Source of the DNA: Varunaivibrio sulfuroxidans
GTDB lineage: Bacteria > Pseudomonadota > Alphaproteobacteria > Rhodospirillales > Magnetovibrionaceae
Direction of reading: 5' to 3'
Assembly: GCF_029318635.1 (NCBI RefSeq)
Contig: NZ_CP119676.1
Location: 2,369,001 to 2,433,000, forward strand
Length of the DNA: 64,000 nucleotides
Both the position numbers and the translations under genes were made by a program. Below the pieces are notes generated by a model, which was given only the letters and a program-made list of their open reading frames with translations, was not told the DNA's origin and made no database searches. Position 1 is the first letter of the stretch. Each line of letters starts with the position of its first letter. Below are positions 20,426 to 47,574 of this stretch, one piece after another.

Positions 20426-20440
20426 TAGGGTCAGGACCTA
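20426..20440. repeat. REP-like palindrome supplying a stop codon
   Basis: TAGGGTCAGGACCTA is a near-palindrome found in several intergenic places in this window. Here its last three bases, read on the minus strand, are the TAG stop of the S4-domain gene. It lies between that stop and the TerC start. Confidence 0.75.
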
Positions 20441-23695: not shown

Positions 23696-23755
23696 CTAGG
23701 GTCAGGGCCTCTTCATCTGGTGCGTCTGGCGGAGATGAATAGGCCCTGACCCTAG
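23696..23755. repeat. 60-bp REP/MITE-like element with 15-bp inverted ends
   Basis: The element starts CTAGGGTCAGGGCCT and ends with its exact reverse complement AGGCCCTGACCCTAG (23741-23755). The 30-base centre includes CTTCATCTGGTGCGTCTGG and GGAGATGAAT. Very similar head sequences occur at 24928, 25200 (reverse), 28263 (reverse) and 47277 (reverse). No coding capacity. It lies upstream of the helicase gene, between divergent promoters. Confidence 0.88.
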
Positions 23756-24415: not shown

Positions 24416-24790
24416 TTAAAGGCCGATTTCCTCCGGCGGGTTCTGGCGTTCCTTGGTCCGGCGCTTTTCAGTGCGGCTCTTTAACTGGCGCTCGACGGCG
24501 CTGAACGCGTCGCGTACGGCGAGATAGGGGTCGGTGTGGGCGGGGTTCGCGCCGGGATCGTGAAAAATGATCGGATCGGTTCCCGGGATGACGAGATCGA
24601 CGCCGACTTCAAACAGCGCGCCCTTGGTGTGGTGCTTGTGGGGCAGGGCGACGGTGACCCGACACTGGGTGATCCGTTCGTGATAGACATGCAGCTTTTG
24701 GGCGCGCGCCTCAATATCGACCTGAAGGGCGTCGGAATGATCGCAATTGAGGAATCTGACCTGGACGGGAATTTGTTTGAGATCTTTCAT
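24416..24790 (-). CDS. HPF/RaiA-family ribosome-associated protein
   Basis: This 124-residue short hibernation-factor-like protein has a beta-alpha-beta core: IPVQVRFLNCDHSDALQVDIEA, VTVALPHKHHTKG, and a helix YLAVRDAFSAVERQL with a basic tail SRTEKRRTKER. Such proteins bind the 30S decoding region in slow growth. The start at 24790 is set by GGAG six bases upstream; the longer frame to 24835 has no such site. It lacks the long C-terminal dimerisation domain of long HPF. A large foldback repeat sits upstream. Confidence 0.85.
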   Translation of the reverse strand: MKDLKQIPVQVRFLNCDHSDALQVDIEARAQKLHVYHERITQCRVTVALPHKHHTKGALFEVGVDLVIPGTDPIIFHDPGANPAHTDPYLAVRDAFSAVERQLKSRTEKRRTKERQNPPEEIGL

Positions 24791-24927
24791 GAAAGTCTCC
24801 AACCGGGGTTGAAAAACCGGGAGGTGCGCACCCACTCTTCCGGTTCCCTTTCGCGCCGCGTGAAACGCGGACGACGCGGCGGGGCGGGGATCGGCGGGGT
24901 GAATGTCAAAGGCGAGTCCTCCCTCCG

Positions 24928-25200
24928 GTCAGGACCTCTTCATCTGGTGCATCTGGTTTGTGAAAAATGTCACAAGCCGAGGAGAAGACTTGCCGGAAGT
25001 GCCGTTCACTTTCAAAAGTCTTCGACGACGTTCCTGGGGCATTTTTCACAAATCCCTGCGGGACGGGATGAATTTAAGCGCGGATGTCGTTGGAAAACCC
25101 TTGCAACTTGCAATGAGAGCCATTGCGGCGGGTTCTCCGCCTAACCCGCACTTAAATTCATCTCCGCCGGATGCATCAGATGAAGAGGTTCTGACCCTAG
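24928..25200. repeat. Composite branched foldback repeat element
   Basis: Outer arms 24928-24956 and 25167-25195 are inverted and match at 26 of 29 positions; the right end finishes CTGACCCTAG. Inside are two further dyads: TTTGTGAAAAATG (24957-24969) with CATTTTTCACAAA (25040-25052), and GATGAATTTAAG plus CGCGG (25067-25083) with its partner at 25146-25162 (one mismatch). The first continues with GAAGACTT/AAGTCTTC and the second with AACCC/GGGTT and GCAATG/CATTGC. The whole can fold as a three-way structure. It has no coding sense. The outer arms are REP heads like 23696-23755. Confidence 0.85.
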
Positions 25201-25437
25201 TTTTAGATGGTCTCGAACGGGGAGGCGGTCAAGCCCGTGGGCGTGAAGAAAAACGGACGGGGAGTCTACGTGAAGGGGTTGCATCCGCTTGGCAAACAAG
25301 ACATATCTGTCGTGCGCGCAAGGCCCGCGCTCCGTCGTCGGGCGGCGCGGCGTGATTATGAACTGTAATTTTGACGATGACCCTTAGTTTCTGACGATGA
25401 CCCCTAATTTTGACTATGAAGTGAGTGACGTATCGCC
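25201..25437 (+). promoter_or_regulatory. htpG upstream region with 20-bp direct repeats
   Basis: No gene is seen between the foldback element and htpG. TGACGATGACCC occurs at 25372-25383 and again at 25392-25403, exactly 20 bases (about two helical turns) apart. Each is followed by a TA-TTT tract, and a degenerate third TGACTATGA lies at 25411. The phasing suggests tandem binding sites. No clear RpoH-type promoter was found. Confidence 0.5.
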
Positions 25438-27378
25438 ATGACGACGCAAACCTTTACCTTTCAGACCGAAGTCAGCCGGCTTCTCGATATCGTTGCGGGA
25501 TCTTTATATAGCCATAAGGAAATTTTCCTGCGCGAGTTGATTTCCAACGCCTCGGACGCCTGCGACAAGCTACGCTACGCGGCGCTGACCAAACCGGAGC
25601 TTATCGACGACGGGGCGAGCGGTGATTTTCGCATCGCGCTTGCGGTGGACGCCAAGGCCAAGACCCTGTCGGTTTCGGATAACGGCATCGGCATGAACCG
25701 TCAGGATCTGATCGACACCCTGGGCACCATTGCCCGTTCGGGCACGGGCGCGTTCGTGGACGCCTTGTCGGGGGACGCCAAGAAGGATTTGCCGTTGATC
25801 GGCCAGTTCGGCGTCGGTTTTTATTCCGCCTTCATGGTGGCGGACAAGGTCGAGGTGCTGACCCGCAAGGCGGGCGAAGCCGAGGCCTGGGTATGGACAT
25901 CCGACGGCAAGGGCGCGTTTGAAATTTCCGACGGCGCGCGGGGCGCGCGGGGAACCACGGTGACCTTGCACATGAAGAAGGACGCCAAGGAATTCCTTGA
26001 GAAAGAGCGACTCAAACATATCGTCAAGACGTATTCGGACCACATCGGCTTTCCCATCGTCCTTGAGGAAGTGAAAGATGCGAAAGGCGACGGCGACGGC
26101 GACGGCGACGAGAGCGCGCCCCTGAACGCCGCTTCCGCCCTTTGGACGCGCCCGAAAAGCGAGATCACCGAGGAGCAATATAAGGAGTTCTACCATCATT
26201 CTTCCCATAGCTTCGACGATCCCTGGCTGACCTTGCACAACCGGGTCGAAGGCGTGCTTAGTTACACCAATTTGCTGTTCATTCCTTCGACGCCGCCGTT
26301 TGACTTGTTTCAACCGGAACGCAAAGGGCACCTTAAGCTTTACGTCAACCGGGTGTTTATTACCGAAGACTGTGAGGGGTTGGTGCCCAGTTGGCTTCGG
26401 TTCTTGCGCGGGGTGGTCGATTCGGAAGACCTGTCTTTGAACATTTCGCGCGAAATACTGCAGAACGATCCCAAGCTGGCGAAAATTTCTAGCGGTCTGG
26501 TCAAGCGCGTTCTCGGCGAATTGAAGAAAAAAGCCGAGAAGACGCCTCAGGATTACGCCGATTTCTGGAAAAATTTTGGCGCCGTCCTCAAGGAAGGCTT
26601 GTACGAAGACTATGCCCGGCGAGACGAGCTTCTTGCCCTCAGCCGTTTCAAGAGCACGGCGGGCGACGCATGGGTGTCCTTGGAAGATTACGTCCAGCGC
26701 ATGAAGGAAGGTCAGGACGCGATTTACTACATCACCGGTGAAAACCCGGAACAGTTGGCCAAAAGTCCACACCTGGAAGGCTACCGCGCCAAGGGTGTCG
26801 AGGTTTTGTTGCTGTCCGATCCGATCGACGATTTTTGGGTTTCTGCGGTAGGAAAATTCAAGGACAAGGATTTCAAGTCGATTACCAAGGGCGCGGCGGA
26901 CCTGGATAAGGTTAAGGGCGCGGACGGAAAGGACGACGGTTCTCAGGACGACGCCGGAACAGCGCCCGGGATGGACCGCCTGATCGTCGCCGTCAAGGCG
27001 GTTCTGGGCGATGCGGTTAGCGACGTGCGCGTCTCCAAACGCTTGACCGACAGCGCCGTTTGTCTGGTTGCCGACGAGGGGGCGATGGATGTCAACCTGG
27101 AGCGGATGTTGAAACGCCACGGCCAGATGACCGGCGGTATGAGCGGGAAGATCCTCGAAATTAATCCCAAGCATCCCTTGATCGAAAAACTGGCGTCGCG
27201 GGCGGAAAACGCCGCCGCGCAGGATACGGAAGAAGCGGAAAAAGCGGAGAAAGACGCGACGCTGGACGACGCGGCTCATCTTCTGTTCGATCAGGCGAAA
27301 ATCGCCGAGGGCGAAATTCCCGACGATCCCCAGGCTTTCGCCCGGCGACTGAGTGCGATGATGGCGCTCGGCGTTTGA
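25438..27378 (+). CDS. htpG: Molecular chaperone HtpG (Hsp90)
   Basis: This 646-residue bacterial Hsp90 has an N-terminal GHKL ATPase with FLRELISNASDACDKLRY, DNGIGMNRQDLIDTLG and GQFGVGFYSAFMVADKV. The middle domain follows with LYVNRVFI and SEDLSLNISREILQ. The C-terminal dimerisation domain is present without the eukaryotic MEEVD tail. A short Gly-Asp repeat (DGDGDGDES, near residue 220) is encoded by GGCGAC hexamers in the charged linker. It is followed by a strong terminator, so it is transcribed alone. Confidence 0.97.
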   Translation: MTTQTFTFQTEVSRLLDIVAGSLYSHKEIFLRELISNASDACDKLRYAALTKPELIDDGASGDFRIALAVDAKAKTLSVSDNGIGMNRQDLIDTLGTIARSGTGAFVDALSGDAKKDLPLIGQFGVGFYSAFMVADKVEVLTRKAGEAEAWVWTSDGKGAFEISDGARGARGTTVTLHMKKDAKEFLEKERLKHIVKTYSDHIGFPIVLEEVKDAKGDGDGDGDESAPLNAASALWTRPKSEITEEQYKEFYHHSSHSFDDPWLTLHNRVEGVLSYTNLLFIPSTPPFDLFQPERKGHLKLYVNRVFITEDCEGLVPSWLRFLRGVVDSEDLSLNISREILQNDPKLAKISSGLVKRVLGELKKKAEKTPQDYADFWKNFGAVLKEGLYEDYARRDELLALSRFKSTAGDAWVSLEDYVQRMKEGQDAIYYITGENPEQLAKSPHLEGYRAKGVEVLLLSDPIDDFWVSAVGKFKDKDFKSITKGAADLDKVKGADGKDDGSQDDAGTAPGMDRLIVAVKAVLGDAVSDVRVSKRLTDSAVCLVADEGAMDVNLERMLKRHGQMTGGMSGKILEINPKHPLIEKLASRAENAAAQDTEEAEKAEKDATLDDAAHLLFDQAKIAEGEIPDDPQAFARRLSAMMALGV

Positions 27379-28246: not shown

Positions 28247-28263
28247 CTAGGTCCTGACCCTAG
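28247..28263. repeat. REP-like palindrome joined to the 121-bp repeat
   Basis: CTAGGTCCTGACCCTAG follows GCGTTCCGGGTGA. The same ~30-base block recurs at 47247-47277 with two differences. It directly abuts copy 2 of the 121-bp repeat, sharing its CTAG. Confidence 0.8.
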
Positions 28264-28380
28264 TGGTTTGAGTTTAACATTTGAGTCCGATGCAATTGGA
28301 CACAAATGTGTGAAGAAATCAAACTGCAACAAAAAGATAGATAGTGGTCGGCCCGATGGTTCGCGGGAGCGAAACGTCGG
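28260..28380 (+). repeat. 121-bp structured dispersed repeat, copy 2
   Basis: Identical to 122-242, same orientation, with the same interrupted hairpin. It lies between the TauE gene and a small conserved gene on the other strand, whose stop codon (28391) falls in the similar segment just beyond the exact match. Confidence 0.9.
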
Positions 28381-28390
28381 AGTCGATCCA

Positions 28391-28591
28391 CTAGAGCCCG
28401 ACCCGCAAATTGCGGCGGCTTTGGGCGATCAGACCCGTCAATTCGGAGAGATCGACGCCGTCGCTGGCCATCAGCTTGTGGGTGATCGGGTCGCCCAGCA
28501 CCTCATCCAATGACGGTTCGAGTCCGACGAACCGCGTCTGCCGTGTGGTGGTGGGCCGTGTTTCCGGGCGTTCTACTTTGCGCGGCGTCAT
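28391..28591 (-). CDS. Small conserved alphaproteobacterial protein
   Basis: This 66-residue soluble protein has a basic N-terminus (MTPRKVERPETRP) and a C-terminal helical part SLDEVLGDPITHKLMASDGVDLSEL. Similar short proteins with a DP-x3-LMA-x-DGV core occur in alphaproteobacteria, as far as I recall; no function is known to me. ATG 28591 has GGAG six bases upstream, better than 28603. The stop lies next to the 121-bp repeat. Confidence 0.65.
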   Translation of the reverse strand: MTPRKVERPETRPTTTRQTRFVGLEPSLDEVLGDPITHKLMASDGVDLSELTGLIAQSRRNLRVGL

Positions 28592-47220: not shown

Positions 47221-47574
47221 ACCTAAGCAGGCCGTGTCGCGCGCGTGGCGTTCCAGGTGACGAGGTCCTGACCCTAGAGGTTTTTGGTGGGTTCCACAGG
47301 ATTTGCGGGCGCGGGCGGGAGTTTTTGGCGCGGGCCGTAGCGGCCCGCGTTGTCGCGCCGGTCGCCTCTCTTCTCGGTTATTAGGTATCGGTTATCAGGT
47401 ATCGATTGTCAGGCCTTCTTCCGATTGCGTCCGCGGGGGGCGATTGCGTCGTCGCCCTTTGGTCTCGCCGTCGCCTTTTGGTTAGGGGACGCGGTTTTGG
47501 CCGCCCGAGAACAAAGTCTTGCCCCCAAGAACAAAGTCTTGCCTAAGGGCGCTCTCAACGGTCAAACTGAGAAA
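47221..47574. other. Intergenic region with REP motif, hairpin and short duplications
   Basis: GCGTTCCAGGTGACGAGG followed by TCCTGACCCTAG (47247-47277) matches the REP-bearing block before 28263. CGCGGGCC-GTAGC-GGCCCGCG (47329-47349) is a perfect 8-bp hairpin. GGTTATTAGGTATC/GGTTATCAGGTATC (47377-47405) and AGAACAAAGTCTTGCC (two copies near 47507 and 47528) are direct duplications. No gene is supported, though a frame runs into the NUDIX gene from 47350. Confidence 0.55.

Follow-up and report, generated by a model that had tools for sequence, protein, structure and literature searches.

Between hpf and htpG in Varunaivibrio sulfuroxidans lies a long palindromic sequence, which raises the question of whether it is a mobile element, a structured RNA or a composite of REP units. 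It was analyzed in a window of 64,000 nucleotides, the whole stretch of DNA considered here, from a genome that consists of a 3.07-Mb single contig. The earlier note, made from the letters of this DNA, had described outer arms enclosing two long inner dyads, and both were found where it had placed them: the arms (24927–24956 and 25167–25196) are complementary at 27 of 30 positions, while the inner dyads pair 24957–24974 with 25035–25052 and 25067–25083 with 25146–25162. The element with the positions of its left and right TA, and its parts, are listed in Table 1. In the surrounding 20 kb no other dyad axis reaches 26 of 30 pairs, and none was present in three mononucleotide shuffles. The RNA fold of 24900–25210 had an energy of −151.2 kcal/mol (z −11.4), which was equalled by none of 100 shuffles; with DNA parameters the fold of 24924–25199 gave a z of −12.5, equalled by none of 200 shuffles. 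This copy is damaged at its left end, where it reads TCCGG versus TAGGG in most copies, and its dyad 2 carries 7 extra bases. It adjoins hpf (Ribosomal_S30AE; 24416–24835, minus strand), and htpG starts at 25438, which is 238 bp past the element end and close to the 240 bp noted before; both genes are transcribed away from it. Near-repeats TGACGATGACCC at 25370–25425 lie immediately upstream of htpG. Two open reading frames overlap the element, and neither is a conserved gene by the tests applied. The hpf/htpG neighborhood is one insertion site among many.

Table 1. Positions of the element, its parts and related sequences in the window
Feature	Position	Strand	Remarks
Whole element with flanking dinucleotide places	24924..25199	+	dyad 1 first; left TA changed to TC, right TA intact
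Left outer arm (P1 5′)	24925..24956	+	outer end is an IS5-type terminal repeat
Right outer arm (P1 3′)	25167..25198	+	
Dyad 1 (P2), hairpin unit	24957..25052	+	predicted sense strand +; GGA and GAC bulges conserved
Mini-hairpin P3, between both units	25053..25063	+	
Dyad 2 (P4), inverted and diverged version of the dyad 1 hairpin unit	25064..25166	-	model R2 match on minus strand, E 6.1e-8
60-bp two-ended short form	23697..23754	+	arms of the element, without both dyads
Solo end remnant	20426..20439	+	
Solo end remnant	28250..28262	-	abuts second repeat family
Solo end remnant	47264..47276	-	

The search of the genome with the element gave 96 matches, of which 30 were examined as loci, and further copies were found both in this genome and in relatives. 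Fifteen of the 30 loci are two-ended full-length copies of about 265 bp, one of them (L016) with a partial internal duplication. Four forms of 160 bp are without dyad 2 (L020, L022, L024, L025), and seven two-ended copies of 60 bp are among the genome matches. The suspected kinship of the 60-bp element in the window at 23696 is confirmed by its identical ends. The junctions of the 160- and 60-bp forms sit at GATGAA. Five copies (L021, L023, L026, L027, L028) consist of the left half and break a few bases from the central hairpin, L029 likewise ends near it, and L030 is a right-hand fragment. No right-half-only copy reaching the central hairpin was present among the 30 loci examined, the truncated copies all being of the left half. 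Five copies (L015, L017, L018, L019, L029) are interrupted by a second repeat family, which is roughly 130 bp long, is bounded by AGTGG...CCACT and enters at CTAG. In four of these five (L015, L017, L018, L029) it occupies the same CTAG of dyad 1, and L019 carries it at the base of that dyad; in the window this family is found at 28262–28392, and another copy starts at 124. The 14-bp end of the element, with up to 2 mismatches, occurs in the genome at 80 sites per strand, whereas the reversed pattern is present 17 and 19 times, and at 13 of 14 fetched sites the partner end was absent within the 3-kb stretch. Such solo ends (TAGGGTCAGGACCT), three of which are given in Table 1, are numerous in the genome, some of them beside gene ends.

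The element ends are GGGTCAGGACCT...AGGTCCTGACCC, with a TA on each flank and YTAR as the target. The 15 full-length copies, counted with L016, have this TA on the left in 10 and on the right in all 15, each time within YTA or TAR. Among 43 named copies, TA was present on the left in 40, on the right in 40 and on both sides in 37, preceded by Y in 39 and followed by R in 38. For the analysis of empty sites, the flanks of six Thalassospira copies were joined with one TA and searched in 29 genomes of the genus. The five loci fetched for L173 aligned without gaps at 90–96% identity and contained a single TA, and those fetched for L192 and L196 also had a single TA, with gaps elsewhere. At the L157 and L195 sites the fetched loci aligned yet had no TA, and for L137 no spanning locus was among those fetched. 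A single TA at empty sites of sister species means that insertion of the element duplicates TA, and this was clean at three of six sites. Together with the many copies and the ends shared with IS5 elements, described below, this bears out the reading of the element as non-autonomous and mobile.

The exact end of 20-odd bp was scanned across the genome collection, which gave 74 stretches, every one with an alphaproteobacterial title. From 47 candidate end pairs, the 43 with a match of model R1 inside were retained, and these yielded full elements from 43 of the stretches. In four stretches, from Aminobacter (two), Shinella and Novosphingobium, the partner end was 830 or 844 bp off, and the ends of the element there bound insertion sequences of 826–840 bp, each holding two overlapping reading frames; scans of two of them both gave DUF4096, DDE_Tnp_1 and NF033580 (IS5 family) matches. 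A fifth such stretch, from Aliiroseovarius, is 1189 bp long. The end itself was the search pattern, and it is the IS5 genes found between the ends that are the independent part of this evidence. Model R2 had no match in the four loci, and therefore the interior of the element is not the remnant of an insertion sequence of this kind. Among 18 bearer genomes, NF033580 had a match in 15, above the cut-off in 8, and no match in 3; where IS5 terminal repeats could be detected, they often fit the end consensus of the element (G003, G060, G064, G165, G277). In the window genome no intact IS5 with these ends was found; of its two NF033580 matches one is weak, and the other has ends unlike those of the element and three in-frame stops. 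The frames of eight loci with relatives' copies were inspected by eye, and no transposase gene was recognized beside the copies. IS711 of Brucella, an IS5-like element that also has two frames, targets YTAR and duplicates its TA (PMC2266754), and the same target and duplication are stated for ISPsp10 of the IS427 group (PMC4133298). These similarities of ends, target and duplication suggest that an IS5-family transposase is the likely mover in trans. The element shares terminal inverted repeats with IS5, has a TA duplication in YTAR, and is small, multicopy and noncoding. Hence it is a MITE with IS5/IS427-type ends, and the surprising part is its branched fold, which is kept phylum-wide.

These data also bear on two other readings of the ends. 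The earlier note had seen REP heads in them, and a composite assembled from REPs or CGTC-REPs and mobilized by a Y1/RAYT enzyme could account for palindromic units arranged as head-to-head dimers, and for the GAC/CGACG bulge, which is CGTCG on the opposite strand. CGTC-REPs are likewise dominated by Alphaproteobacteria, form head-to-head dimers, carry an unpaired tag of this kind and have no known transposase (PMC3733652). However, CGTC-REPs have a stem of 8–9 bp, a loop of 4–5 nt and a CCA tail, while the element has a second hairpin in the loop and a unit of about 100 nt; identity with CGTC-REPs was rejected on loop and tail, even though a CGTCG-like tag and an 8-bp stem are present. GTAG REP/BIME with RAYT was rejected as well, given that the window genome is without Y1_Tnp and the unit is of about 100 nt and not 20–40 bp. 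Y1_Tnp is present in three of seven bearer genomes, yet no element-like end that would pair with those Y1 genes lies near them, and the TA duplication is a further point against this composite, which we regard as very improbable; the supposed REP heads are IS5-type terminal inverted repeats with TA duplication. It is similarly hard to believe that the element is a MITE of the IS630 (Tc1/mariner) type. Such an origin would agree with a TA duplication within CTAG, and in one related genus the ends weakly resemble an IS630-like locus there (TAATACCAAGG), but the DDE_3 match is absent in 7 of 18 bearer genomes, the window genome's own IS630 has different ends, and matching ends were found on IS5 elements. 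This resemblance involves loci L086, L088, L091, L092 and L119 in related genera (g37, with L092 from g43), where the elements have ends TACCAAGG..., which resemble an IS630-like locus in one g37 genome and could reflect a swap of ends between transposase families.

The interior of this IS5-ended MITE is made of two homologous, diverged hairpins flanking a mini-hairpin, and is enclosed by arms of 31 pairs. In alignment A1, 21 sequences (14 from the window genome, 7 of relatives) were aligned by sequence alone, leaving out L016 for its internal duplication, the interrupted L015, L017–L019 and L029, and the short and truncated copies. The data showed that 52 of 98 pairs were altered on both sides, with 96.7% of cells paired; none of 500 shuffles reached 52, and slid partners gave at most 16 such pairs. 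The earlier note had proposed a selected three-way fold, of which the branching is upheld, and with covariation, while the mini-hairpin turns the consensus into a four-way junction. Alignments A3 and A4 contain 34 elements picked for spread over genera, and not every match. In the class-wide alignment of 34 elements the mean column identity was 56%, and of the 70 pairs predicted from both strands 68 had at least two Watson–Crick types and 26 had all four. Conservation of 90% or more is seen in 14 columns of the half unit, 10 of which are unpaired; the letters of the conserved blocks are GGA, GG, C-A, GAC and CC, and the mismatched GGA and GAC bulges are kept class-wide (31–34 of 34 in their columns). 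A higher mean conservation of unpaired columns was not seen in two of three alignments, the unpaired versus paired values being 0.68 versus 0.61 for the half unit, 0.62 versus 0.64 for A3 and 0.84 versus 0.91 for A1.

The relation between the two halves was followed with model R2, which was built from first halves alone. An opposite-strand match to the second half was obtained for 36 of 53 loci and, counting own copies, for 12 of 14; for L100 and L139 this match belongs to another copy in the locus. In loci from other classes such a match was present in none of seven, and it was present in both named gammaproteobacterial copies. With RNA parameters the forward strand gave the better fold of the first half in 34 of 34 elements, whereas for the second half the reverse strand did so in 29 of 34; the orientation was set by the model match to the first half, which may favor the former figure and not the latter. 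With DNA parameters the numbers were 32 and 29 of 34. The 70 shared pairs contained 64 G-U versus 70 A-C cells, as compared to 12 versus 0 in a small control of nine tRNAs. Near-equal counts of this kind could be taken as a sign of a DNA-level fold, but that reading does not stand, because pairs predicted from either strand (152 G-U versus 98 A-C over the whole element) and the half unit (68 versus 34) show a strand preference. This excess is explained by the halves folding on opposite strands. According to these predictions, the sense strand of one unit is the antisense strand of the other, and therefore a transcript spanning the whole element is not the product to be expected first; RNAs of the single units would fit, and so would single-stranded DNA from either strand.

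Two further explanations of the fold have to be weighed against these data. One is a structured RNA, in which the hairpin unit would act as a transcript, and the mobile element would carry a unit on each strand so as to produce it whichever way it inserts. It is supported by the preference of each unit for its own strand, which is nearly as marked with DNA parameters, and by the G-U excess in the half unit and over the whole element, while the balanced counts in the pairs common to both strands, so different from the tRNAs, argue against it. Rfam (4227 models, E up to 1) gave no match on the element in the window stretch, and the sole overlap in 15 relatives' loci was a sub-threshold mir-2041 (29 of 70 bits, L085). 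The structured RNA proposed earlier is thus kept as a rival, though a doubtful one, with its units preferring opposite strands. The other explanation is a mutation bias, in which template switching corrects imperfect palindromes and maintains complementarity without selection on the fold. Long palindromes are known in general to undergo such correction, and it may explain part, and could yield much, of the covariation, the more so as the shared pairs over the whole element are without strand bias. However, the persistence of the mismatched bulges across the class, the constant length near 265 bp and the strand preference of each half make it unlikely as the explanation of the whole.

To describe the distribution of the unit, R1 was used in the order, where 39 of 317 genomes gave a match, and R2 in wider samples, counted at E ≤1e-4 per genome with rough calibration, nine candidates scored per genome and the window genome included. 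R2 found the unit in 43 of 385 genomes sampled from the class Alphaproteobacteria and, in a phylum-wide sample of 398, in 56 genomes, of which 20 belong to this class and 36 to other classes; 342 genomes in the class sample and 342 in the phylum sample were without a match. The arms served as an independent check: among seven loci from other classes, six have arms matching at 14–16 of 16 positions between two TAs, with spans of 263–270 bp in five and 164 bp with a single hairpin in one. In the seventh, L304, the arm script gave 6 of 16 and the right end is CTC, and the arms were recognized by eye. The named copies of Halomonas sp. PA16-9 (268 bp) and Azotobacter chroococcum (269 bp) have arms matching at 18 of 18 positions, and across bearers the length stays near 265 bp. 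Two alphaproteobacterial copies had no match in plasmid records, and a copy from another class found four gammaproteobacterial ones.

The nearest known counterparts by terminal repeats and TA duplication in YTAR are members of the IS5 family/IS427 group (NF033580), such as IS711 (PMC2266754); unlike the element, which is without coding capacity and has an unrelated interior, the IS5/IS427 donor has two overlapping frames. Bru-RS1 and Bru-RS2 of Brucella, likened by description alone, are likewise intergenic palindromes of an alphaproteobacterium, of 103–106 bp, and are hot spots of IS711; the entry of IS711 into Bru-RS resembles that of the second repeat into the element at one CTAG. TIMEs, ERIC, RUP, Chunjie and QMITE2 have a similar size range, terminal repeats and a stable predicted fold (PMC4133298, PMC10969869, PMC5896051), and no report of a covarying four-way fold across classes was found for any of them in the literature consulted; TIMEs differ in their Tn3 ends and duplications of 5–6 bp. 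R178 and R200 of P. fluorescens are intergenic Pseudomonas repeats, set beside the element by description only (PMC2718517). No description of the element itself was found in the open-access literature, which omits most subscription papers.

Hence, these data suggest, as the probable reading, a MITE with IS5/IS427 ends that is mobilized in trans and has an inverted-dimer, four-armed interior, the fold of which would be selected because it helps the element itself to move or survive. The terminal repeats would be recognized in trans by an IS5-family transposase, which would insert the element at YTAR with duplication of TA. The four-armed fold, supported by the covariation and by the match of one half to the model of the other, would form from two inverted homologous units around the mini-hairpin, so that a sense copy of the unit could be available on either strand, each folding better on its own. 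Most likely, a single-stranded or extruded structure would be recognized by a protein through the bulges. The short forms, whose junctions were observed at the GATGAA repeats of the stem bases, could arise by deletion (slippage) between these repeats, and breaks at the tip of the hairpin could account for the half copies.

Bacterial MITEs are usually viewed as lineage-bound debris of a single insertion sequence. The near-constant length of this architecture in many Alphaproteobacteria and Gammaproteobacteria, with stems that are re-lettered yet paired, points to selection on fold in a passenger element. It is a tentative proposal that the element is an ancient, phylum-wide parasite defined by folded shape over sequence, with ends matched to whichever TA-duplicating insertion sequence is active (IS5, perhaps IS630). 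If true, its inverted structural units, one sense per strand, would be readable in single-stranded form by a transposase or host protein in either orientation of the element. The covariance models allow the annotation of a repeat family that is missing from Rfam, and the question of whether such palindromes are junk or substrate becomes testable with defined mutants.
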